From: Verrucomicrobiota bacterium
Lineage (GTDB): Bacteria > Verrucomicrobiota > Verrucomicrobiia > Limisphaerales > JACQFS01
Direction: 5' to 3'
Length of the DNA: 41,868 nt
NCBI GenBank assembly: GCA_016199935.1
Contig: JACQFS010000221.1
Coordinates: 1 to 41,868 of the forward strand
The notes beneath the pieces are model-generated. The model had not been told where the DNA came from. It ran no database searches and saw only the letters and a list, made by a program, of their open reading frames with translations. The position numbers and the translations under genes are program-made. Positions 24,862-41,868 of the stretch are shown here, piece after piece. Every line of letters starts with the position of its first letter. The stretch's first letter is position 1.

Positions 24862-27800
24862 ATGTTCAAATCGCGCTGGTTTTTCCTCGGATCACTCCTC
24901 GTTGCCGGCCTGCTCGCGGTGGTGTTCCTGCGGCCCCGGTCGGCGCCGCGGCCCGAGGTGGTGGTCGCGCCCGTGGCGGTCCCAGTTGCTCAACCCGTCG
25001 TGGCGGCGGCTGAAGCGGTGCTGAGCGTGGCGCCGAAGACGGTTTTGGAAAAATTCAGCGACTGGTCCGCACGCTACGTGGCGGCCCGGCCGGAGGATCG
25101 CGCGGGTCTCGTCGCCGAGGGACTGAAACTGGCGCAAGAGCGGCGCGGGGAGATGCTCAAGCTGATCAAGAACGATCCCCAGACCGCGCTTGAACAGGCC
25201 GTGCCTTACGGCGTGCGCAAGCGATTGCCCGAGGAGGTCAAGGCCGAGTTGGAGCAACCCGTCAGCGGGCACGGCTCCTACGAGGTGATCATTTTCCGGC
25301 CCTTGCCCGGTCATGAGGGCGAGCAGCCGCCGACCGAACGCAAGGTGAAGATCAAAGGCCAGAAATTCGACGCCTACGTGTATGGCTGGCGTTCGCAACT
25401 GATGTCGAAGCAGGATATCGCGATGCACGGCGTCGGGATCGGCAGCGCCCTTGCGATGAGTTCGGACGCGGCCCGGACGGTTTCGCCGGAAGAGGCGGCG
25501 GACCTCGTCGCGGCCGGAAAGGCGAAAGTGGATCCCGTCTGCAGTGTGAGCGGGCAACCGTCCGTGACGGCGGGGCTGCCGGTGCTGCTGGACTTGGGGA
25601 CGGGACAATTCCAGACGGTTTGCGGCGAGCACCCCGGCGCGGTGAACGACAGTGTTCGCTTCGCACTGCAATTGGAGAACACCTCGAAAGCTTCGGCGGC
25701 GCGCCGACTGGCGGTGATGAACCACCTCAAGGTGCTCTCGCCCTCGCAACTGGGGATGTCGGTGCAGGCCTTCGGCGGCGGTGGCGGAGGCAGCACCAAC
25801 CCGCCGGTGATCCCGCCCGGTCTGCTCGGCCAACGCCGGCTGTTGCTCATCCCGGTGCAGTATCTCGACGAGGCGGCCCCGCCGTTCACCCAGCAGGCGA
25901 TTCAGACGGCCGGCCAGGCGGTGCATAATTTTTACAACCGGGCCTCCTTTGGTTACGAGCAGGTGGTGGCCACGGTCACGCCCACCGTGGTGTTGCCCTA
26001 TCGCGAGTGGGTTTATGACGAGGGCTATCTCGGTTCGGGTTACTTGAGCATCGTCAATGACGCGGTCGTCCAGGCGAATTTGCTCGGCTACGACGAATCC
26101 GCCTTCGACTACTATTACGTGATCGCAACCTCGATCCCTTCGGCCAACTACGGCGGCATTTCCTACCACCTCTCCTTCGGCACGGGGTCGTTGAATCACG
26201 AGATCGGCCACAACACCGGTCTGGGTCATGCACACTTTTTCGACAATGGCCGGCCGCCCGGACCGACCCAGCCCAACCCCGCGCTGCCGATCGATCCGGA
26301 CAGCAGCAGCACGGCGAACAACAGTGTGGGCCACGCCGACATCAACGCGCCGTATATCGCCGGCATTGGCGGGGCGGTGGGCGGCGGGTCGGGATCGATC
26401 CTCGACTACGGTGATCCGTGGGATACGATGGGCAGCGGTGGTTCCGATTTCGGCGCGCCCAGCAAGGCGAACATCGGCTGGTTGCCGCCGCAGTTCATCC
26501 GCACCATCACCACGGGCGAGACCAATCGCATTTACGCCTTCGACGGCGGCTCCGTGACCAACGGGCGTCTCTACGCCCTGCGCACCCGCCGCAACCAGAC
26601 GTGGGGCGACTTCTGGATTTCGCATCGCCACGCCATCGCCAACAATCCTTATCTCCTCAACGGCGTCATTCTCCAGGACGGTTCGCCCACGTTGTTTGAC
26701 ACCACCGGCGGCACGCCCGACGGCCGGAACGACTCGGCCATTGTCGTCGGCCGGACCTTCTCCGACCCCGAGGCGCGCGTTCACATCACCCCGATCGCCA
26801 ACGCCGGCACGGGGGCTGACGCGTGGGTGGATGTCGTGGTCCAGCGCGGGGATTTTCCCGGCAACAATGCCCCCGTGATCGCCTCGCTGCTGGCGAGTGC
26901 CGTCAGCGTTGCGCAGGGAACGCCGGTCACCTTTACCGCCACCGCGAGTGATGCGGATGGCGATGCGCTCGCGTATTACTTCACGTTCGGCGACGATTCG
27001 TTCGGCACCAACTCGGCGACCAACGTCCACACCTTCGCGACGAACGGACAATATGTCGTGCGCTGTGAGGTCTCCGACATGAAAGGCGGACTCGCGAGCG
27101 CGAACCTGCTCGTGACGGTCGGCAGTCCCGGCAGCTTCGCCATCAGCGGTCGGGTGACCGATCCCAACGGCCTGCCCGTGCAGGGCGTGCGCATCCACAA
27201 CGGCGTGGCCCCGCCGGGCGACAGCGGCACCGGCACGCCGATCAACGCCGGCGGTTACAGCTACGGCTACACCGACAGCGACGGTTACTACATCGTCCCC
27301 GACCTCGGCGCCGGCACCTACACAATGGGGGCGTTTCTCTATCGCAACCGCACCTTGCCGTTGAATTTCAACGGCCTCGTGACCGTGAACAGCGCGAACG
27401 TCACCGACGTGAACTTCACCGCCACCCCGATCCAGCGCGTGACGGTGGACGTGGTGACCAACGCCATCGAGGGCGGCGCGCCGGGCGTCTTCCGCGTCAG
27501 CCGCGACGGCCCGACCACCAACGACCTCCGCGTGAAGGTCGCGCTCTCGACGCCCGACGGCGCTGGCTTCACGCCCGCGGCCCTGGCCAATATCATCATC
27601 CCGACCGGCTCGGCGTTCACGAACATCAACATCACCGGCCTGAACAATGCCGTGGGCGACGGCGGGCGCCACGTGCGTCTCACGCTCTCGCTCGTGACCA
27701 ACTACATCGTCATCTCCTCCTTCCTGACCAACAGCCAGTTCGTCCTGCGCACCAACAACATCCTCTCGCCCGGCTGGGAAATTCTGCCGCGCCTCTCCGA

Positions 27801-30800
27801 CAACGCCGACGTCTGGTATCAGACCTACCCGAATTACGTCATCGACAACGCCGAGGCCACCATGCTGGTCGTGGACGACGACCCGCCCGGCACCCCGACC
27901 GTCTCCGTCACCGCCGGCAACACCGGCGTCGTCGAAGGCAGTTCCGACGTCGCCAACTTCGTCTTCCGCCGCACCTCCGCGCCGCTGACCAACGACCTCA
28001 TCGTCAACTTCAGCCTCACCGGCACCGCCAGCAACGGCGCGGACTACGTCACCGTTCCCGGCACCGTCATCCTCCCCGCCGGCCAGAGCGTCGTCGCCGT
28101 CCCCATCGTCCCCATCAACAACTACTTCGTCGATGGCGACCGCACCGTCGTCGCCACCGTGCAGGCCGGGGCCGGCTACAATGCCTCCGCCTCCACCGCC
28201 ACCGTCACCATCGTGGACGACGACCTCACCAGCATCGGCGTTTACGCCTCCGACCCGTTCGCGGGCCGCGGCGGCGGCAACAACGGCACCTTCACCTTCA
28301 CCCGCCACGGCGACCTCACCCGACCCGTGCTGGTGAATTATCTGGCCTCCGGCACGGCCGTGGCCAACTCGGACTACACGACGCTTTCCGGCTCGGTGAA
28401 CATTCCCGCCGGCGCGATCTCGGCGACCGTCACGGTGGTGCCCACGGCGCTCCCGAGTTCGCCCGGACCCAAGACCGTCGTCGTCACCATCTCCGACAGC
28501 CCGTCCTACAACACCCACGGCCAGGGCCGCGCCACCGTGAAAATTTCCGACGTGGTGCCCACCGTCACCGTCGCCAACTCGGGCAACGCGGCGGAAGGCG
28601 GCGGCAACGGCGGCTTCAACATCACCAGCACCGGCTCGACCGCCAACCCGCTCACCGTCTTCTTCAACCTCGGCGGCTACGCCAATCCGAACACGGACTA
28701 CAGCGGCATCGGGACGAACGTCGTCATCCCCGCCGGCTCCGCCACGGTGAACATCCCCATCGTGGCGAACGACGACAACTTCCGCGAGTTCACCGCCACC
28801 GGCCAGAACAACGCGCGCCTGAACGAACACGAGTTCGTGCAGCTCGCCCTGATCGAGAGCGACACCTACGACATCGGCGGTTCCGGCACCGCGAGCGTCA
28901 CCATCACCGACAACGATGGCGCGGCCTTTCCCGGCGTCTCCTTCATCACGCAGACCACCACCGTCCGCGAGGATGCCGGCACGATCTCGATCCCGGTGCG
29001 CATCGGCGGCAACCCGACCAACAACGCGCTGCTGCCCGTCGTCGTCACCTACGCGGTCACCGGCGGCACGGCGGTGCGCACCGTGAACTACGACTACGCC
29101 TTCCCCAACCCCGACACCCTCCTGTTCATCAGCAACCGGGTCGTCACCGGCGGCTTCGAGGACCTCACCCAGCAGATTCAATTCCTCGACCTCGACATCT
29201 TCGACGACGGCGTCATCACCGGCGACCGCACCATCATCCTCAACCTCGGCTACTACACCAACTTCATCACCAACATCGTCGTCGGCGTCAGCACGAACAT
29301 CATCCCGTATCCGACCAACTTCGTGCTGGGCGACTACCGCACGCACACCATCATCATCAAGGACACGGACTCGGCCGTGGTGGACATTGCGGCGCTCACG
29401 ACGCTGGCCTACGAACAGGGCCAGGTGCCCGGCGTGTTCCGGCTCACGCGCACCGGCACGACGAACGCCTCGCTCAAGGTCAACCTGCTGGTCAGCGGCA
29501 CGGCGGTCAACGGCATTGACTACACCAACATCGCGTCGTCCGTGACCTTTGCGCCCGGGGCGAAAACCGTGGACATCCTGGTCACGCCGTTTGATGACGT
29601 GGAGCAGGAGCCGGCCGAGACGGTGGTGCTCACGATCGCGGAGTCGCCCGGCATGACCATCGGCACCAACTCCGCGACGGTGGTGATCGTGGACAACGAC
29701 GGCACCGTGCAATTCACGTTCGCCACTTACGAGGTGAACGAGGCGGCGACCAATGCGGTGATCGACGTGCTGCGCACCGGCGCGACCAACCTGCTCTCGA
29801 AGGTGGACTACGTTTTCAACGACGGCACCGCGAGCAACGGCCTCGACTATCTCGGCACCAACGGCACGCTCACTTTCAATCCCGGCGAGGTGGTCAAGCA
29901 GATCATCGTCCCCATCGTGAACGACCTGATCGTGGAGCCGACGGAGACGTTCTCGATCACGCTGACCAACGCCACCGGCGGCGTGCCGCTGGGCGGGCAG
30001 TTCCTCGCGACGGTCAGCATCGTGGATGACGACATCGCGTTTGTCTTCAAGTCGCCGACCTTCTCGGCCTACGAGGATGGGACCAATGCGGTGATCACCG
30101 TCTATCGTCTCGGCGTGACGAATGCGGCGGTGAGCGTGGACTTCAGCACGGCGGACGGCACGGCCAGCAACCTCCTGGACTACACCGGGCAGACGAACAC
30201 GCTGACGTTCAACCCCGGCGTGACCAACCTCACCGTGCTCATCCCGGTGATTGATGACGTGCTGATGGAGGGTGACGAGACGGTGAACCTCGCGCTGGCG
30301 AATCCCAGCCCCGGCGCGACCATCGGTGCGATCTCCAACGCGGTGCTCACCATCGTGGACGACGAGGCTTATGTGGAGTTCAGTTCCACGACGTATTCCG
30401 TGCTCGAATACGCGGGGCAGGCGGCCCTGCAGATTCGCCGCGTCGGCGGCACGGAGCATCCGATCAACGTCTCCTATTACACGACGGACGGGACGGCTTC
30501 CAACGGGCTCGACTACGTGGCCGTGGCCAACACCATCACCCTCGCCGGCGACAGCTACGTGCTTCTGACCAACGGCAGCGGCCAGACGGTGTTCGTGCGC
30601 GGTGAAACGAACCGGACGATTTTCATCCCGATCCTCGACGACACGCTGGGCGAAGGGAATGAGACGTTCCTCGTGACGGTGGGCTCCGTGGCCGGCGTGA
30701 GCAACGTGGTGATGTATACCAACACCTTCTTCAGCGACAGTTCCGAATTCCGCTTCCCGATCGCCACGCTCAAGTCCCAGGGCACGCTCGTGATCAACTA

Positions 30801-33800
30801 TGATTTCTTCGTGCAGCCGGACGTGCTCCGGGTTTATTACGCCGGCGGGTTGATTTTTGATTCCGGTTCGGTGGCCAACTCGGGAACCTTCACCGTGCCC
30901 TTCGGGCCCGGCCTCACCAACGGGGTCGAAATCGTGATGAACGAGGGTGGCAACCCGGTGCCCAACGCGTCGTGGACCTACACGGTGGCGGTGGTCACCG
31001 CCAGCACCACCGTCGCGGGGCCGAACTCGAACGCGGTCGTCACGATCATTGACGACGAACAGCCGGGCTACGTGGACTACCAGTTCAACACCGGCGCGGG
31101 CGCGAATGCCCCGGTGCTCTCGGCGTCGCTCGACTTCGCGCAGAACAAGGTCGTCATCGGCGGCGCGTTCACCACGGTTGACAGCAACGTGCTCCGGCAC
31201 GTCGCGCGCCTCACGCCGCTCGGGGCGGTGGACCAAAGTTTCAACCCGGGCGCGGGCGCGAACAGCAACGTCAACTCCGTCTTCGTCCAGCCGGACGGCA
31301 AGGTGTTGGTCGGCGGCGAGTTCACGACGATGGACGGTTCGAACCGCGTGCGCGTCGCGCGGCTCGGCGCCGACGGCAACGTGGACCCCGGCTTCACGCC
31401 GGGCGTGGGCCCGAACAATTCCGTGCGCGCCGTGGCGGTGCAGGCCGACGGGCTGGTGCTGATCGGCGGCGATTTCACGGCCGTCGCGGGCAACACCAAC
31501 TTCCACCACTTGGCGCGACTGCTGACCAACGGCGTGCTCGACACCAACTTCGTCACGTCGGTGAGCAACACGGTCCTCGCCATCGTGCCGCTGACCAACG
31601 GCTCGATCCTCGTCGGCGGCGCGTTCACGAATGTCGGCGCCACGCTGCGGCCCGGCCTGGCGCAATTCCTGACCAATGGCACGCCGGACGGTTCGTTCGA
31701 TCCCGGCGCGGACGCCGACGGGCCCGTGCGCGCGCTCGCCGTGCAGCCGGACGGCCGGATCGTGGTCGGCGGTTCATTCACCCTCTTCAACGGCAACCTC
31801 ACGAACCGGCTCGTCCGCCTCACCGCGGGCGGCGCGGTTGATCCCGGCTTCAACACCGGCTCCGGCGCGGATGGCGACGTGAACGCCGTGGCGCTCGACC
31901 CGACCGGGAAGATTTTCATCGGCGGCGCGTTCTCGAATTTCAATGGCTCGCCCCTCGCGCATTACGCGCGCCTGCGCGCGGCCGGCGCGGTGGACATCGT
32001 GTTCAACGCCGGCTCCGGCGCCGACGCGGTCGTCAACACCGCCGTCATCCAGACCAACTCCGGCATCATCATCGGCGGCGCGTTCACCAACGTGAACAAC
32101 GTCCCGCGCCCCGGCGTCGCCCGCATCCACGGCGACGAGAAATCCGTCATCGCCGAGGTCGAGCTCGACTTCGCGAGCTACACCATTTTGGAAAACGCCG
32201 GCCCGTTGAACGTCACCCTCACGCGCCGCGTGAACACCAACCTCGCCTTCGCCATCGGCGTCGTCACCACGGATGGCACGGCGACCAACGGCACGGATTT
32301 CACGGGCGGGCTCTATGTCGTGAACTTCGCCGCGGGCCAGACCAACGCGAACTTCAACCTCCCCATCCTCGACAACCTCGCCGTGGACGGCGACCGCACG
32401 TTCTTCCTCTCGCTCACCAACGCGCCGAACAACGTCGCGTTCCCCGGCGTGAGCAACGCCACGGTCACGATCATCAACGACGATTCCTACGTGCAGTTCA
32501 GCGCGGCCACCAATTCGGTGATTGAGGGTTTCACAGCGTCCGTCGTCGTCACGCGCATCGGCCGGCTCGCGCTGCCCGCCACCGTGGTGCTCCAGACCGG
32601 CGGCGGCACGGCGACCTCCGGCTTCGATTACTCGGGCGTGACGAACACGGTGAGCTTCGCGCCGGGCGAGACGGCGCAGACGAATTTCATCCAGACTTAC
32701 AACGACACGATCCTCGTCGGGCCGCTCAAGACCGTGGGCCTCACGCTGGTGAACCCGACGAATGTGCTGGTCGGCACGCCCGGCGCGCAGACGTTGACGA
32801 TTGTGGACAACCCGAGCGCGATCTCGTTTGCGGCCACAAATTTTTCCGGCCTGGAGGGCTTCAGCATCCCGGTGGTGATCCAGCGCACGGGGTTCACGAA
32901 CTTCGCGGTGTCGTGCCTGTTCGTGACGGGCGGCGGCACGGCGGCGAGCGGGGCGGATTACACGGGCGTGACGAATGCGGTGAGCTTCGCGCCGGGCGAG
33001 ACGCTCGTGACGAATTTCATCCAGACCTATAATGACACCATCCTCGTCGGCGCGTTGAAGACGGTGGGGCTGACGTTGCTGAACCCGACGAACATCGCGC
33101 TGGGCCCGCCGTCGGTGGCGACGCTGACGATTCAGGACAACCCGAGCGCGATCAGTTTCACGGCCACGAATTTCTCCGGGAACGAGGGGACGAACATCGC
33201 GGTGGTGATCACGCGCACGGGGTTCACGAATTTCGCGGTGGCGTGCTCGTTCGCGACCGGGGGCGGCACGGCGGTGTCGGGCACGGATTATCTCGGGCTG
33301 ACCAACGTGCTGCTGTTCGCGCCGGGCGAGACGCTCGCGACGAATTTCATCCAGACGTTCAATGGTTACACTTTCGCCACGCAGACGAAGACGGTGGGGC
33401 TGACGCTGGGGAATCCGACGAACATTGCGCTCGGGCCGCCGGCGGTCGCGACGTTGCTGATCCTGGATGACCCGAGCGCGGTGACGTTCAGCTCGCCGAC
33501 GAATTCCGTGGTGGAGGGGACGAACGCGGTGATCACCGTCACGCGCGGCGGGCAGACGAATCTCGCGGTGTCGGTCTGGTTCCGGACCACGGGCGGGACG
33601 GCGACGGCGGGCGTGGATTACACGGGCCAGACGAACCTGCTGCTCTTCGCGCCGGGTGTGACGACGCAGACGGTGCTGATCCCGACGGTGGAGGATTTCA
33701 CGCCGGAGCCGGGCGGCGAGACGGTGGGGTTGCAACTTTTTGGGGCGACGAACATTGCGATCGGGCCGTTCGCGAACGCCACGCTCACGATCAATGATTT

Positions 33801-35100
33801 CGCGCCGTTCCCCGGGGCGATTGACCGGGATTTTGATTCGAGCATCGGCGCGAATGATCTGGTGCGGTCGGTGGCGGTGGAGCCGAACGGGCACATCCTG
33901 ATCGGCGGCGGGTTCACGAAGTGGAACAACTCGAACCGGCTGCATGTGGCGCGGGTGCTGACGAACGGGGCGCTCGACACGACGTTCGCGCCCGGCTACG
34001 GCGCGGACGCGGTGGTGTCGGCGATCGCGGTGCTGCCGACGGCGCGGATCATGATCGGGGTGGCGTTCACGAACGTGAACAGCAATGTGTTCAATCACCT
34101 CGCGCGGCTGGGGACGAACGGGCTGCCGGACTTCACGTTCAATCCGCCGGGGAGTTTGGATGCGGCGCTGAACGCCATCGCGGTGCAGACGAACGGGCAG
34201 ATGATTTTGGGCGGGGGTTTTCACACGCCGCTGAGCGGGGTGATGAGGCTGACGACGAACGCGACGGTGGACCCGGCGTTCCTGATCGGCACGGGCGCGA
34301 ATGGGCCGGTGCACGCGCTGGCGGTGGATGTGGCGGGGCGCACGTATCTCGGCGGCGGCTTCACGAGCGTGAACGGCTTCCCGGCCGCGCGCGTGGCGCG
34401 CCTGCTGCCCAACGGGGCGGTGGATACGAATTTTGTGCCGGCGGCGATCACGAATGGGGTGGTCTTCGCGCTCGCGGTGGAGCCGGACGGGCGGTTGTTC
34501 ATCGGCGGGGAGTTCACGTCCGTGGGCGGCACGAACCGGGGGCGGGTGGCGCGGCTGAATGGGAACGGGTCGCTGGACCTGACGTTCAATCCGGGGACGG
34601 GTGCGGGCGGGGCGGTGTATGCGCTGGCGTTGCAGCCGAACGGGCGGGTGGTGGTGGCGGGCGATTTCACGAATTTCAACGGCACGACCGTGGGCCGGAT
34701 CGCGCGGGTGGAGGAGGATGGCTCGCTCGACGTGTCGTTCAGCGCGGGGCACTCGGGCGCGGACGCGCCGGTGTATGCGCTGGCGGTGACGTTTGGCGGC
34801 GGGCTGGTGTTGGGCGGCGACTTTACGACGGTGAACGACGCGCCGCGGCACGGGGTGGCGCTGCTGTATGGTGATCCGCCGGTGCAGTTGGTCTCGGGCA
34901 GCGTGGTGAGCAACGGGTTTTTCGTGACGCTCGGCACGTTGCCGGGGGGGACGTATGCGATAGATTACAGCGACACGTTCTTCGGGCCGTGGACGCCGCT
35001 GGTGACGAATTTTGCGTTGGGCACGAGCCTGACGTTCACGGACACGAATGCGCCGGCGTTCCCGACGCGCGCCTACCGGGCGCGGCTGCTGGTGCCGTGA
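24862..35100 (+). CDS. Giant exported metzincin protease with PKD, Calx-beta and delta-60-repeat domains
   Basis: 3,412 residues. N-terminal membrane segment (about 5-25) as signal or anchor; propeptide-like region to ~310 with C227 and C254. A zinc-protease domain spans about 320-655, with the metzincin motif HEIGHNTGLGH (H446, E447, H450, H456) and Met-turn M523 (DTMGSGG), closest to the gametolysin/M11-like group. Then come a PKD domain (669-753), a carboxypeptidase-regulatory-like domain (757-855) and nine Calx-beta domains (857-2067). The ninth Calx-beta is interrupted by a ~95-residue module at 1955-2048. Seven delta-60 repeats (2068-2427), five Calx-beta (2428-2982), seven more delta-60 repeats (2983-3335) and a ~75-residue C-terminal beta domain follow. 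No sortase, PEP-CTERM or T9SS signal is seen. Calx-beta domains bind calcium and often build adhesins; a surface protease-adhesin is the likely role. Confidence 0.85.
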   Translation: MFKSRWFFLGSLLVAGLLAVVFLRPRSAPRPEVVVAPVAVPVAQPVVAAAEAVLSVAPKTVLEKFSDWSARYVAARPEDRAGLVAEGLKLAQERRGEMLKLIKNDPQTALEQAVPYGVRKRLPEEVKAELEQPVSGHGSYEVIIFRPLPGHEGEQPPTERKVKIKGQKFDAYVYGWRSQLMSKQDIAMHGVGIGSALAMSSDAARTVSPEEAADLVAAGKAKVDPVCSVSGQPSVTAGLPVLLDLGTGQFQTVCGEHPGAVNDSVRFALQLENTSKASAARRLAVMNHLKVLSPSQLGMSVQAFGGGGGGSTNPPVIPPGLLGQRRLLLIPVQYLDEAAPPFTQQAIQTAGQAVHNFYNRASFGYEQVVATVTPTVVLPYREWVYDEGYLGSGYLSIVNDAVVQANLLGYDESAFDYYYVIATSIPSANYGGISYHLSFGTGSLNHEIGHNTGLGHAHFFDNGRPPGPTQPNPALPIDPDSSSTANNSVGHADINAPYIAGIGGAVGGGSGSILDYGDPWDTMGSGGSDFGAPSKANIGWLPPQFIRTITTGETNRIYAFDGGSVTNGRLYALRTRRNQTWGDFWISHRHAIANNPYLLNGVILQDGSPTLFDTTGGTPDGRNDSAIVVGRTFSDPEARVHITPIANAGTGADAWVDVVVQRGDFPGNNAPVIASLLASAVSVAQGTPVTFTATASDADGDALAYYFTFGDDSFGTNSATNVHTFATNGQYVVRCEVSDMKGGLASANLLVTVGSPGSFAISGRVTDPNGLPVQGVRIHNGVAPPGDSGTGTPINAGGYSYGYTDSDGYYIVPDLGAGTYTMGAFLYRNRTLPLNFNGLVTVNSANVTDVNFTATPIQRVTVDVVTNAIEGGAPGVFRVSRDGPTTNDLRVKVALSTPDGAGFTPAALANIIIPTGSAFTNINITGLNNAVGDGGRHVRLTLSLVTNYIVISSFLTNSQFVLRTNNILSPGWEILPRLSDNADVWYQTYPNYVIDNAEATMLVVDDDPPGTPTVSVTAGNTGVVEGSSDVANFVFRRTSAPLTNDLIVNFSLTGTASNGADYVTVPGTVILPAGQSVVAVPIVPINNYFVDGDRTVVATVQAGAGYNASASTATVTIVDDDLTSIGVYASDPFAGRGGGNNGTFTFTRHGDLTRPVLVNYLASGTAVANSDYTTLSGSVNIPAGAISATVTVVPTALPSSPGPKTVVVTISDSPSYNTHGQGRATVKISDVVPTVTVANSGNAAEGGGNGGFNITSTGSTANPLTVFFNLGGYANPNTDYSGIGTNVVIPAGSATVNIPIVANDDNFREFTATGQNNARLNEHEFVQLALIESDTYDIGGSGTASVTITDNDGAAFPGVSFITQTTTVREDAGTISIPVRIGGNPTNNALLPVVVTYAVTGGTAVRTVNYDYAFPNPDTLLFISNRVVTGGFEDLTQQIQFLDLDIFDDGVITGDRTIILNLGYYTNFITNIVVGVSTNIIPYPTNFVLGDYRTHTIIIKDTDSAVVDIAALTTLAYEQGQVPGVFRLTRTGTTNASLKVNLLVSGTAVNGIDYTNIASSVTFAPGAKTVDILVTPFDDVEQEPAETVVLTIAESPGMTIGTNSATVVIVDNDGTVQFTFATYEVNEAATNAVIDVLRTGATNLLSKVDYVFNDGTASNGLDYLGTNGTLTFNPGEVVKQIIVPIVNDLIVEPTETFSITLTNATGGVPLGGQFLATVSIVDDDIAFVFKSPTFSAYEDGTNAVITVYRLGVTNAAVSVDFSTADGTASNLLDYTGQTNTLTFNPGVTNLTVLIPVIDDVLMEGDETVNLALANPSPGATIGAISNAVLTIVDDEAYVEFSSTTYSVLEYAGQAALQIRRVGGTEHPINVSYYTTDGTASNGLDYVAVANTITLAGDSYVLLTNGSGQTVFVRGETNRTIFIPILDDTLGEGNETFLVTVGSVAGVSNVVMYTNTFFSDSSEFRFPIATLKSQGTLVINYDFFVQPDVLRVYYAGGLIFDSGSVANSGTFTVPFGPGLTNGVEIVMNEGGNPVPNASWTYTVAVVTASTTVAGPNSNAVVTIIDDEQPGYVDYQFNTGAGANAPVLSASLDFAQNKVVIGGAFTTVDSNVLRHVARLTPLGAVDQSFNPGAGANSNVNSVFVQPDGKVLVGGEFTTMDGSNRVRVARLGADGNVDPGFTPGVGPNNSVRAVAVQADGLVLIGGDFTAVAGNTNFHHLARLLTNGVLDTNFVTSVSNTVLAIVPLTNGSILVGGAFTNVGATLRPGLAQFLTNGTPDGSFDPGADADGPVRALAVQPDGRIVVGGSFTLFNGNLTNRLVRLTAGGAVDPGFNTGSGADGDVNAVALDPTGKIFIGGAFSNFNGSPLAHYARLRAAGAVDIVFNAGSGADAVVNTAVIQTNSGIIIGGAFTNVNNVPRPGVARIHGDEKSVIAEVELDFASYTILENAGPLNVTLTRRVNTNLAFAIGVVTTDGTATNGTDFTGGLYVVNFAAGQTNANFNLPILDNLAVDGDRTFFLSLTNAPNNVAFPGVSNATVTIINDDSYVQFSAATNSVIEGFTASVVVTRIGRLALPATVVLQTGGGTATSGFDYSGVTNTVSFAPGETAQTNFIQTYNDTILVGPLKTVGLTLVNPTNVLVGTPGAQTLTIVDNPSAISFAATNFSGLEGFSIPVVIQRTGFTNFAVSCLFVTGGGTAASGADYTGVTNAVSFAPGETLVTNFIQTYNDTILVGALKTVGLTLLNPTNIALGPPSVATLTIQDNPSAISFTATNFSGNEGTNIAVVITRTGFTNFAVACSFATGGGTAVSGTDYLGLTNVLLFAPGETLATNFIQTFNGYTFATQTKTVGLTLGNPTNIALGPPAVATLLILDDPSAVTFSSPTNSVVEGTNAVITVTRGGQTNLAVSVWFRTTGGTATAGVDYTGQTNLLLFAPGVTTQTVLIPTVEDFTPEPGGETVGLQLFGATNIAIGPFANATLTINDFAPFPGAIDRDFDSSIGANDLVRSVAVEPNGHILIGGGFTKWNNSNRLHVARVLTNGALDTTFAPGYGADAVVSAIAVLPTARIMIGVAFTNVNSNVFNHLARLGTNGLPDFTFNPPGSLDAALNAIAVQTNGQMILGGGFHTPLSGVMRLTTNATVDPAFLIGTGANGPVHALAVDVAGRTYLGGGFTSVNGFPAARVARLLPNGAVDTNFVPAAITNGVVFALAVEPDGRLFIGGEFTSVGGTNRGRVARLNGNGSLDLTFNPGTGAGGAVYALALQPNGRVVVAGDFTNFNGTTVGRIARVEEDGSLDVSFSAGHSGADAPVYALAVTFGGGLVLGGDFTTVNDAPRHGVALLYGDPPVQLVSGSVVSNGFFVTLGTLPGGTYAIDYSDTFFGPWTPLVTNFALGTSLTFTDTNAPAFPTRAYRARLLVP
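32485..33474 (+). repeat. Three 330-bp tandem Calx-beta units inside the giant gene
   Basis: Units begin at 32485, 32815 and 33145, each exactly 330 bp (110 codons); a fourth, 33475 on, is more diverged. The marker CCCGAGCGCG recurs at 32811, 33141 and 33471. The second and third units share long identical stretches, such as the region encoding RTGFTNFAV, which points to recent duplication within the gene. Other Calx-beta units are far more diverged. Confidence 0.75.
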
Positions 35101-35190: not shown

Positions 35191-38100
35191 ATGCAGTTAA
35201 GGCAAACCCTGATTCGTTTTCTCCAGGCTGGCGGCGGTGCGGTCCGCTGGCGGGCGCTCGCGGCGGTGTGCGCGCTCGCGGCGCTGGCCGTCCCGGTGCG
35301 GGCGCAGTCCAACGCGTTCAGTTTTTCCTCCGGCGTCTATGTCGTCGCGGAAAACACGCCCGGCTTCGCCACCATCACCGTCCTTTACGGCGGCGGCGCG
35401 ACCAATGCGGTGAGCGTGGACTACGCCACCGGCGGCGGCACGGCGACGAACAACGTCCATTACACCGGCCTCACGAACACGCTCGTTTTCGCCGTGGGTG
35501 ACACCTCGAACATTTTCACCATTCCGATCTTCGACGACGCGGTGAGCAACGGCGCGCGGACGGTGGGACTGACGCTGGCGAACCCGCAGGGCGGCGCGAT
35601 TCTCGGCGCGCCGGTGGCGGCCACGCTGCTGATCACGGATGACGAATCGCCGACGAATCTGCCGCCGGCGAACAACCAGTTCACGAATGCCGCGATCCTC
35701 ACCGGACTGTTCGGGACGTTTGCCAATACCAACACGTTTGCGAACAAGGAAACGGGCGAGCCGAACCACGCGGGCAACGCGGGCGGCGCCTCGGTGTGGT
35801 TCCGCTGGTCCGCGCCGGCGAGCGGCCCGGTGACCTTCAGCACGGTGGGGAGCGGGTTCAACACGTTGCTGGCGGCCTACACCGGGGTCGCGGTGAGCGG
35901 CCTGACGCCGATTGCGTCGGACGACGACTCGGGCGGCGGCGGCACGAGCACGCTGACGTTCACGGCCGTGGCGGGGCAGGTGTATTATATAGCGGTGGAT
36001 GGTTCCGGCGGCGCGCAGGGCAGCTACATCCTGAGCTGGGGCAACGCCGGCTCGGCGGGCACATTTGGTTTCACCACGGGAAATTTTCTGATGAGTGAAC
36101 GGGACGGTGGTGCGCCCACCTCGCTGACGGTCAGTCAAACCTACACGGGCGGTCGCATCACCATCACCCGTTACAGCGGCATGGCGGGCAAGGTGCGCGT
36201 GTTCTACCGGGTCAGTGACGGCACCGCGCGGCGGGCGCCCGGCGACTGGACGCTGACCGGCGGCGGGGTCGAGTCGGCCACGAGCATGACCAACTCGGCG
36301 GTGTTCTTCGACGGGCAGACGGCGGCGAGTTTCTTCATCGTGCCCACGCTTCGCACCAACAACGACAATATCCCCACGACGGTGAACCTGGCGATCACCG
36401 GCATCCAGTTCGAGCCGGGCGAGTCGAGTGCCGTCATTCCGGGGAGCATCGATCCCGTGGCGGGCACGAGCGTGGCGCGCATTCTGGACGGCCAGCAGGG
36501 CGTGTCGCTCCAGCGGCTGCGCTGGCGCACCATTGAAACGATCGGCACGGCCGTCGTCCGGGTGCTGCGGGGGAATCTTCCCTTCTCTGACGGGCTCGGA
36601 ACCATCGTGACCGTGGATATGCTTAACAACGGAACGCCCAACGCGCCTGGCCCGGCCAGTTCCGCGACGCTCGACGCCAGTTCTGACCACGCCCAGTCGA
36701 ATCTGGATTTCACCCCGTCCGTTACCACGATCACCTGGGTCGCCGGGCAAACTTCTGCCGACATTTCCATCCCCATTCTCGACGACGCGTTGGTGGAGTT
36801 TGACGAGGATCTCGCCATTACGCTGCGTCCGGAACCGGGCAACGGCGCGCCGCAGAGCGACACGACCGACGGGACGCTGACGATCGAGTTTCCGAACAAC
36901 ACCGCGGCCAACGTCGTGACCAACAAGCATCCCGCCGGCTCGGTGGATCCGGGTTGGAACCGCGACTACTTCCTCGGCAGCAATCCGCCGGACAATTCCG
37001 CGCCGGGCGCCAACGGCCGCGTGTTCGCGGTGGCGGTGCAGTCCGATCTCAAGACGGTCATCGGCGGCGAGTTCACCAGCGTCAACACCTCGCCGCGCAA
37101 CCGCATCGCGCGCATGAACAGCGACGGCTCGCTCGACGCCAACTTTAATGTCGGCACCGGCGCCAACGGCGCGGTCAACGGCCTCGCCGTTTCGACCAAT
37201 GGTCAGGTCATCATCGGTGGTGCGTTCTCCTCCTACTCGGGCACGCTCCGCGGTGGCGTGGCGCGCCTGAGCACCAATGCGGTGCTGGATCCCAGTTTCA
37301 ACCCAGGGGCCGGCGCGACCGGCGGCCCGGTGCGCGCGGTGGCGCTCTACACGAACGGGGTGAATGAGGGCAAGGTGATCGTGGTGGGTGATTTCACCAG
37401 CTTCGCCGGCGTGAATGCCCGCCGTCTGGTCCGGCTCAACGCCGATGGCTCGGTGGACCCGCTGTTCAGCGCGGGTCTCGGTCCCAACGGCACCGGACCC
37501 AACGGCGCGGTCAATGCCGTGCTGTTGCAGTCCAATGGCAAGCTGGTCATCGGCGGAGATTTCACCAGCATCAACAGCGTGAGCCGCAACCGCGTCGCGC
37601 GGCTCAATGCGGACGGCACGCTCGACGCGACGTTCAATCCCGGCGCGGGCGCGGACAACTCGGTGTTCGCGCTCGGGTTGGATCGCTCGGGCGTTTCGCT
37701 CACGGTGGACCGCACCGCCTCCGGCGGGCCGGAGGAGGACCGGTTCACCATTGATACCGGCGCGACCAGCGGCACCATCACGATCAACTACGAGTTCTAT
37801 CTCATCCCGGACTCGATCCACGTTTACTACGGCGGTGCGCTCATCTTCGACACCGGGGTGACCAACGGGGCGGGAACGATCAACGTCCCCTACGGGCCCG
37901 GTGCCTCGACCACGGTGGACATCGTGGTCAACGAGGGCGGCAGTCCTGATCCCGGCACGCAGTGGGACTACAGCGCCACGATCACCCCGAATGGCGGCGT
38001 GCAGCGCTATCTCGTGGGTGGGGCGTTCACGACGATGGATTTCCAGTCGCGCAACCGGCTCGCGCGGCTGAATCCGGACGGCTCGCTCGACACGACCTAC

Positions 38101-41100
38101 GATCCGGGCTTCGGCGCGGACGACACGATTTATTCCATCGCCCCCGCGACCAACGGTCCGGCCTACATCGGCGGACTGTTCGCCAGTTACAACGGCACGC
38201 GTCGCATCGGGCTGGCCCGCGTGGCGACCGACGGCACGCTGGACACCGGGTTCATGGACGCGGCCTACAACCAGTTTGCCGGCATCCCCACCGGCTTCAG
38301 CCCGTTCGGGCAGCCGAAGAATTCCGTGCGCGCGCTCGCGGTTCATCGCGACGGCGGCGTGATGATCGGCGGCTCGTTCCATCAGGTCGGCGGCGGCGGC
38401 CGCAACCAGGTCGCGAGCGGTCCGAACAGTCCGTGGGGTCCGAATGTCAGCACGCCCGTCGAGATCACGCGCGACGACCTGCGCAACCGTTACAACATCG
38501 CGCGCATCATCGGCGGGACGACGGCCGGGCCGGGCAACATCGGCTTCACCACGTCCGACTACACCGCGGATGAAAATGGCGGCGCGCGCTTCATCACCGT
38601 CGCCCGCAGCAACGGCTCGCTGGGCGGCGCGGGTGCGTTGTTCGCCACGGGCGACCGGCCGGCCGGCCCGGGCGCGGCTTCTTCGACCACGGATTACGTT
38701 CCGTTCGCCGGCACGTTGAACTGGCCGCGGGACGTGGTGATTCCCGCCTCCTCCGCCTACACCGGCGTCAACAACACCACCGGCACCGGGCAGGACGACG
38801 TCTCGGTCACGATCCTCCCCGACAACCTCGTCGAGGGCGAGGAGCGGCTGAACCTCACGCTCGACCTGCCGCAATCCACGTTCTTCTCGCTCGGCGGCCA
38901 GTTTATTCCCACCGGCGTCGCGCTGGGCCGCTCGCGCGCCACGCTCACCATCGAGGACGACACTCCGGAGCCGACGTATGTGACCTTCGCGACGAACAGC
39001 TTCATCGTGGACGAGGGCGCCGGCGTGGCGACCATCTCGGTCCTGCGCTCGGGCAACACCGGCAATTCGGTGACGCTCAATTTCCTGACGCTGGACGGCT
39101 CGGCGCTGAACAACTCGGACTACACCTCGGTCTTCGGCCCGCTGACCTTCTCGTCCGGTGAGACCAACCGGACGTTCAATGTGCCGATCACCGACGACAC
39201 GTTCGCGGAACTCGATGAGACGATCATCCTGCAGTTGACGAACCTCGTGGGGGCCGTGTTCCTGCCCGGCGGCAACGCGGCGATCCTCACCATCCACGAC
39301 AACGACTTCGCCAACGGCCAGCTCCGCTTCAGCCAGACGAACTTCAACGCCGTCGAGAACTCCGGCCTCGCGCAGGTGGTCGTGCAACGCACCGGCGGCA
39401 ACGTGGGCGCCATCACCGCGCAGGTGGTCACGAGCAATCTCACCGCGCTCGCGGGCGCCGACTACACGGGCGTCACGAACACCCTCTCGTGGGCCAACGG
39501 CGACACCTCGCAGCGCGTGATCAACATTCCCCTCCTGCCGGACGGCCTCGTCGAGGGCCCGGAATTTTTCACCGCGAACATCATCAACGCCCAGGTCGTC
39601 GCCAACGGCAACCCGGTCTCCGTCGCGGTCCCCACGGCGACGGTGACGATCCTCGATTCCGACGCCTACGGCTCGCTGCACTTCGCGGCGGCCAACTTCA
39701 CGGTGAGCGAAAACGGCGGCAAGGCGATCATCACCGTCACGCGCACCGGCGGCAGCTCCGGCACCGTGTCGGTGAATTACAACACCGCCGACGGCACGGC
39801 GTTCGGCGGGGTGAACTACACGCCGGTCATCGGCACGCTCACCCTCGGCCCCGGCGTCACCAGCACGAACTTCACGGTGCCGGTCACCGATGACTTCGTG
39901 CAGAACGCCAACCGCACCGTGTTCCTGAACCTGAACACGTTCGTCAATGCCACGCCGGCCGCGCCGACGGCGGCGATCCTGACGATCGTGGACGACGAGT
40001 CCGTGAATGAACCCGCCGGCTCGGTGGACACCACCTACAACGCGGCGGCGGGCGCGAACGATTTCATCTACTCGCTCGCATTGCAGCCGGACGGGCAGCT
40101 CGTCATCGGCGGCGACTTCACGGTGTTCAACAACTTCGGCCGCCGCCGGCTCGCGCGCCTCGACGCCAACGGCAACCTCGACCCCGTGTTCCTGCCGCCC
40201 GGCGGCGCGAACGACTCGGTGCGCTCGATCACCGTGCAGCCGGACGGCCGCCTGATCGTCGGCGGTTTCTTCACCAACGTCGCCGCCACGACCCGCAATC
40301 ACCTTTCCCGGCTGAACACGGACGGCACCACGGACTCGAGCTTCGATCCCGGAGCCGGCGCGGACGGTCCGGTGTTCGCCACCGCGTTGCACGGGGATCC
40401 GGCCAACGCCGGGCGCATCATCGTCGGCGGCAACTTCGCCGCGTTCAACGGCAACCCGCACCCGTTCCTCGCGCGGCTGCTGACGAATGGCGTGGTGGAC
40501 GAATCGTTCAATCCGGGTGTCGGCCCGGACGGCACGGTTTACGCCGCCGCCGTGCAGCCGGACGGCAAGGTGCTCATCGCGGGCGATTTCCGGAACGTCG
40601 CCGGCCAGCCCGCGCAGGGTCTGGCGCGGCTCAATCCGAACGGCGCGCTCGACGCCGCCTTCGTCGGAAACCTCGGCACGGGCTTCACCGGCTCGGTTCG
40701 CGCGCTCGCGTTGCAAAGCGACGGCCGCATCCTCGTGGGCGGTCTGTTCACCAATTTCAACGGGGCGGTGGTCGGGCGGCTGGTCCGGCTGCAGGCGAAC
40801 GGGACGGTGGATGCCGGGTTTGCGCCGAACAACAGCTTCGCCGCCGGAGGCGACGGTTCGGTGCTCGGCCTGGCGCTCCAGCCGGACGGCAAGCTCATCG
40901 TGGTGGGAGATTTCTCGAAGTTCAGCAGCGTGACCCGCAATCGCATCACGCGGTTGAAGGAGGACGGCACGGTGGACCCGACGATCAACTTCGGTCTGGG
41001 CGCGAACAACTTTGTGGCGGCCGGCGTGGTGCAGATCACCGATGGGCGGATCATTGTCGCCGGCGGGTTCACCGCCTTCGACGGCCTCGCGCGCAATCAT

Positions 41101-41868
41101 CTCGCCCGACTCTACGGCGGGGTGCTCGACGGTCCCGGCCGGATGGAATTTTCCTCCGCCACCTACGTCGTGGCCGAGGCGGGCACGAACGCGACCATCA
41201 CCGTTCGTCGCACCGGCGGCACCACGGGCGACGTGACGGTCACGGCGTTCACTAGCGACGGGACGGCCACGGCGGGGCTGGATTATGGCGCTTACAGCAA
41301 CACGCTGGCGTTCGTCACCGGCGAAGTGGTGCAGACGTTTGTGGTGGGGATCACGAATGACAGCCTGGTGGAGGGCGACGAGTTTTTGAATCTGACGCTG
41401 GCGACGAATGCGTTGAGCGGGGTGACACTGGGGAACCAGCCGGTGGCGACGCTGACGATCATTGATGACGACAGTTTCGTGGCGTTCTCGGCGGCCGCCT
41501 ACAGCGTGAACGAGGGGGTCAACAGCGGCGTGGTGCCGATCACCGTGGTGCGCACGGGTGGGACGAACGGCACGTTCACCGTGCAGGTGGTCACGAGCAA
41601 CCTCACGGCGACGGCGGGCGCCGATTACATTGGCCTGACCAACACGTTGACGTTCCTGCCGGGCGAATTGTCGAAGACGGTGACGACGGCGCCCGCCGCG
41701 GCGAGCACGGGCCCCTGCTGGCCTCCCCCGGCGGCGAGGCAAAGCGTCGGTGTTCCCGTGAGTGGTGGAAACCATTCCATCGGCACAGGCTTCGTCGGCG
41801 TCAGCAGGAGCTCGAACTGGCCGGTTCGTGCCCGCGCAATCACGTCTTTGCCGACGGGGAGCGTCCAC
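35191..41868 (+). CDS. Second giant exported Calx-beta/delta-60 protein, 3' end cut by the window edge
   Basis: The frame is open from the ATG at 35191 to the last base (2,226 codons, no stop). Signal peptide about 1-38 (VPVRA-Q). Then: Calx-beta (about 41-155); a PPC-like beta domain (about 160-285, with [17 protein letters not shown] and [14 protein letters not shown]); two diverged Calx-beta-like domains (to ~575). Seven delta-60 repeats follow (585-1070), split after the fourth by a ~95-residue module (about 838-935) homologous to one in the first giant. Then four Calx-beta (1115-1600), seven delta-60 repeats (1605-1980), and one and a half Calx-beta. From codon 2,165 (about 41,685) the sequence no longer resembles Calx-beta; see the methyltransferase fragment. 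Likely a secreted or surface calcium-binding adhesin-like protein. Only 90 bp separate it from the first giant gene. Confidence 0.8.
41661..41868 (-). CDS. 5' part of a class I SAM-dependent methyltransferase (fragment)
   Basis: Reading from the right edge, the reverse strand gives about 66 residues: [17 protein letters not shown], then [17 protein letters not shown], then [19 protein letters not shown] and VVTVFDNSP. The last two blocks are motif I (the SAM-binding glycine-rich loop) and the acidic strand-2 end of a Rossmann-type methyltransferase, and the TPTKPVP-x-x-WFPPL block is characteristic of one bacterial subgroup. After DNSP the homology stops where the giant gene's sequence begins. 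The fragment has no start in the window (begins beyond the edge) and no plausible end, so it is broken at the junction. Confidence 0.75.

Follow-up and report, generated by a model that had tools for sequence, protein, structure and literature searches.

A single gene in the 41,868-nucleotide stretch of Verrucomicrobiota DNA analysed here (the window) encodes a real bacterial protein of 3,412 residues that joins a metzincin protease to calcium-binding-type domain arrays and two probable propellers, and we tentatively favour the view that it is a membrane-tethered secreted zymogen with an extracellular array, belonging to an M11/M6-like metzincin family that is common in Verrucomicrobiota. The gene (24862-35100, on the forward strand like every feature below) starts with ATG and has zero internal stops, confirming the single uninterrupted 3,412-codon frame described in the initial annotation. 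Two antisense open reading frames, of 2,257 and 2,223 residues, were read as shadows of coding frames. The Pfam matches of the protein are far beyond chance, with Calx-beta at E 3.5e-132 (11 stretches) and DUF5122/delta-60 at E 8.8e-101 (12 stretches). The PKD domain (26863-27099, residues 668-746; E 1.3e-11) and the carboxypeptidase-regulatory-like domain (27142-27420, residues 761-853; CarboxypepD_reg E 5.8e-4, under the curated cut-off) that had been named before were both found by Pfam. Iterative HMM analysis of the window protein gave 16 Calx-beta segments and exactly 7 + 7 delta-60 repeats. Since two Calx-beta domains (residues 1359-1505 and 1838-2066) look as if they are interrupted by insertions, we count 14 of them, nine before the first delta-60 block (27439-31059, residues 860-2066) and five after it (32158-33798, residues 2433-2979), the end motif of the second array decaying from DDD/DND to DNP. 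These numbers bear out the earlier estimate of about 14 Calx-beta domains and two delta-60 blocks. DUF5122 is by its Pfam name a beta-propeller repeat, and the seven repeats in each block (31144-32136, residues 2095-2425; 33886-34875, residues 3009-3338) would fit a closed seven-bladed propeller.

Both elements of the metzincin signature claimed for the catalytic domain and its C-terminal subdomain (25825-26853, residues 322-664) are present: the zinc-binding motif HEIGHNTGLGH (26197-26229, residues 446-456) and a Met-turn region, WDTMGSGG, with M523 (26419-26439). The zinc-binding His and catalytic Glu are invariant among 86 aligned relatives, and the Met-turn Met is found in 52 of 53 alignment rows. 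In three relatives (L048, L051 and L059) the Gly of HExxHxxGxxH is replaced by Ser or Ala with every zinc ligand retained. That the protein is a structural adhesin whose protease is no longer active is very hard to credit: one relative (L212) keeps the domain with the zinc motif lost, but in the window protein and the rest of the aligned relatives all zinc ligands and the catalytic Glu are retained, and most have the Met-turn.

Used alone, the window protease had no significant match to a Pfam peptidase family (best Reprolysin_3, E 0.05), no PDB match and no relative among the genome contigs searched, whereas an alignment of three paralogues recovered relatives where the window domain by itself had failed; a protein search of plasmid records gave one weak match. 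At E <= 0.01, TIGR03296 matched 41 of 42 diverse relatives, Peptidase_M11 (PF05548) matched 30 (best 1.5e-14) and Pfam Peptidase_M6 (PF05547) matched one, and L043 scored above the curated M11 cut-off. The window domain matched neither TIGR03296 nor Peptidase_M11, and its family assignment is made because its relatives match them. For M66 (PF10462), the window domain gave E 6.6 and the paralogues stayed under the cut-off. Structural support came from two AlphaFold models and Foldseek. The model of the catalytic domain (pLDDT 82) had as its best Foldseek match immune inhibitor A2 (E 2.6e-5), which is also the best PDB profile match of the family (4yu5); profragilysin, PAPP-A, venom enzymes and ADAMTS were weaker matches (E 0.008 and above). 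The fold match and the relatives' M11 and TIGR03296 matches uphold a metzincin fold, and profiles and models together support a predicted metzincin lying between peptidase families M11 and M6, with immune inhibitor A2 as the closest solved fold. The loop from the third His to the Met-turn (26239-26397, residues 460-512) exceeds that of most relatives by about 40 residues. It is longer also in the orthologues L207-L209 and is an insertion specific to this subgroup.

The catalytic domain is preceded by a prodomain (25039-25527, residues 60-222) that is kept family-wide, is conserved in a 43-member alignment and stands before metzincins in nearly all open reading frames examined. The exception, L150 in genome G363, has it before a C25/gingipain-type peptidase (E 1.3e-50) followed by a Calx-beta domain. 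In L212 the family-model match starts only at the catalytic domain, so that the prodomain is missing along with HExxH. In 30 of 53 members the stretch linking prodomain to enzyme contains a Cys...Cys-x2-3-His (CCH) module, which in the window protein is the YHS/TRASH-like C227...C254-x2-H257 (25531-25641, residues 224-260). C227, which in a cysteine-switch zymogen would bind the catalytic zinc, is conserved in 31 of the 53 aligned sequences. Compared by hhalign with YHS (PF04945), using a set chosen by a cysteine-pattern filter, the module reached 92.3% and a score of 31.5, against a maximum of 18.1 in 300 permuted controls. The YHS/TRASH pattern C-x(19-22)-C-x3-C itself is absent from the module, its final Cys being His, and the likeness is by profile only; AlphaFold confidence is low to moderate for the second half. 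A CDGSH iron-sulphur reading of the letters CDGSH in some relatives was dropped, as the CxC part is absent.

The protein begins with a hydrophobic segment (24877-24933, residues 6-24) that is followed by RPRSAPRP, is without an AxA site and is probably a signal anchor. We assigned N-termini to classes with a hydropathy and motif heuristic. By this heuristic, of the 64 N-termini that could be read in prodomain-bearing members, 47 show a hydrophobic segment and then charge, 6 have the hydrophobic segment alone, 6 are lipobox-like, 3 are AxA-like and 2 are weak. Among members with the CCH module, a hydrophobic N-terminal segment without AxA or lipobox was present in 37 of 41 and a lipobox-like one in 3; L207, one of the orthologues, may have an AFA site. 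Most prodomain-bearing members therefore look membrane-tethered beside the protease: since the anchor at their start mostly appears uncleaved, the array would point away from the membrane. The protease is thus probably membrane-proximal and the array distal, the reverse of a warhead on a stalk. The surface tether proposed in the initial annotation is in this way supported, if indirectly, by the CCH-module members, with the tether probably lying at the protease end and not at the distal tip of the stalk. The same N-termini bear on a less probable but serious alternative, an ordinary secreted protease that loses its signal peptide by cleavage and is released to break down dead or foreign protein as food, its tail only binding polymeric substrate. 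Prodomain-less relatives do have classical signal peptides (AxA in 17 of 26 by the heuristic), tails are exchangeable within the family, and activity on gelatin is reported for the metzincin cytophagalysin, which has 8 Ig-like domains (PMC11674741); however, the AxA site that cleavage would call for is rare in members that bear the prodomain.

The source genome holds two paralogues (L008 on contig C251 and L009 on C188) that have the prodomain and the catalytic, PKD and regulatory-like domains in common with the window protein but differ in their tails, which carry cadherin/LamG and Calx plus DUF1349, respectively. A search with the three-paralogue alignment detected members in 46 of 388 genomes from the phylum and at 60 named loci, of which many belong to Verrucomicrobiota and Planctomycetota; 14 of 20 genomes comprising the source genome and others of the same order have the family. 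At least 4 Calx-beta domains occur in about 30 relatives. Collinear orthologues were found in three genomes of the same order: L207 (36% identity over 2,656 columns), L208 (35% over 2,721) and L209 (32% over 2,675). Each of these has a single delta-60 block, of 7, 7 and 6-7 repeats, respectively, and nothing in them corresponds to the window protein's second block. Because in all three collinear orthologues a delta-60 block follows the first Calx array, we regard the architecture as a trait of the subgroup. The initial view of the fusion as unusual thus finds no support in its strong form, since protease-Calx fusions recur across the phylum. An AU test of whether the Calx fusion arose once gave p 0.084, with the window protein on a long branch of the tree. 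It is quite improbable that the protein is an effector directed at host or prey, as had been suggested. Host proteins are the targets of some metzincins, among them fragilysin, which also appears in the list of weaker matches by structure; yet many of the named relatives were assembled from environmental sources (such as groundwater, lake and soil), and nothing was found linking the gene to hosts or predation.

Directly following is a second giant Calx-beta/delta-60 gene (35191-41868, ATG at 35191), open at the contig end, whose product has a classical-looking signal peptide (VRAQS) and no protease. Its last residues (41690-41868) cease to look Calx-beta-like, a possible frameshift or assembly error. 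Homologues of this giant adjoin the protease gene in two other genomes, immediately downstream of it in G399 (about 30 bp away) and immediately upstream in G388 (about 140 bp), so that the pairing is found in three genomes. The G388 neighbours are L212 and L221, a 4,444-residue Calx/delta-60 frame. It is conceivable, although unlikely, that the enzyme processes matrix proteins, trimming or shedding the neighbouring giant or its own tail. The recurrent adjacency and the scarcity of delta-60 and Calx open reading frames in the source genome speak for such a role, but the flanks read in G402 and G400, two of the four collinear genomes, showed no such neighbour beside the orthologues, and the adjacent relative in G388 is without HExxH. 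The C-terminal domain of the window protein (about 34879-35097, also given as 34873-35097; residues 3340-3412) is common to other open reading frames of the genome. The last 75 residues of the protein match 32 places there at E <= 1, the window included, and at nine other loci read (L198-L206) eight matches lay at most 5 residues from the end of the frame, the ninth frame ending in a similar motif. The domain matched no Pfam or NCBIfam family at cut-off; ending in FYR-like residues and recurring at the ends of reading frames, it could be a sorting signal.

Sequence or models show the domain order, a metzincin fold with its signature, a conserved prodomain and CCH module, orthology and gene neighbourhood. 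For the function of the protein we prefer, tentatively, the tethered zymogen: the N-terminal hydrophobic segment would hold it in the membrane; the prodomain and YHS-like Cys-Cys-His module, between anchor and enzyme, would keep the protease latent; and the PKD, Calx-beta and propeller domains would, judging by their types, make up an extended array outside the cell, with surface, matrix or partner proteins as its ligands. With prodomain and anchor both N-terminal to the catalytic domain, one cut before that domain would both activate the enzyme and free it together with the array. The adjacent giant would be a likely partner within that matrix. In its full form, a new zymogen design in which an anchored metzincin is held by a YHS-like metal-binding latch and one cut frees a 300-kDa array working with the co-encoded giant, the proposal is doubtful. 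Verrucomicrobiota harbour a large group of putatively anchored pro-metzincins that are joined to arrays of the adhesin type and, going by the papers searched, appear not to have been described; were latch and release true, proteolysis and matrix adhesion would be linked in one molecule and the YHS-like module would have a testable role in an extracellular protease.

Among known systems, M11 peptidases (gametolysin; PF05548) have HExxHxxGxxH and the Met-turn in common with the family, whereas the window protein adds the prodomain, CCH module and giant tail, and its own domain has no M11 match. The M6/immune inhibitor A group (TIGR03296; PDB 4yu5) is matched by nearly all relatives and supplies the best fold match, but its tail is different and Pfam Peptidase_M6 is matched by a single relative. 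The CCH module aligns with the YHS domain (PF04945) and differs from it in having His for the last Cys and in its place inside a protease precursor. Cytophagalysin is comparable as a bacterial metzincin that has a prosegment and several Ig-like domains in a row, but it is pappalysin-type, of 137 kDa and has a signal peptide, and its abstract names no Calx-beta domain or propeller (PMC11674741). BapP of Pseudoalteromonas tunicata, one of the Calx-beta adhesins and a large extracellular protein required for calcium-dependent biofilm, resembles the window protein, as predicted from sequence, in combining Calx-beta-type repeats with a propeller (PMC12153261).
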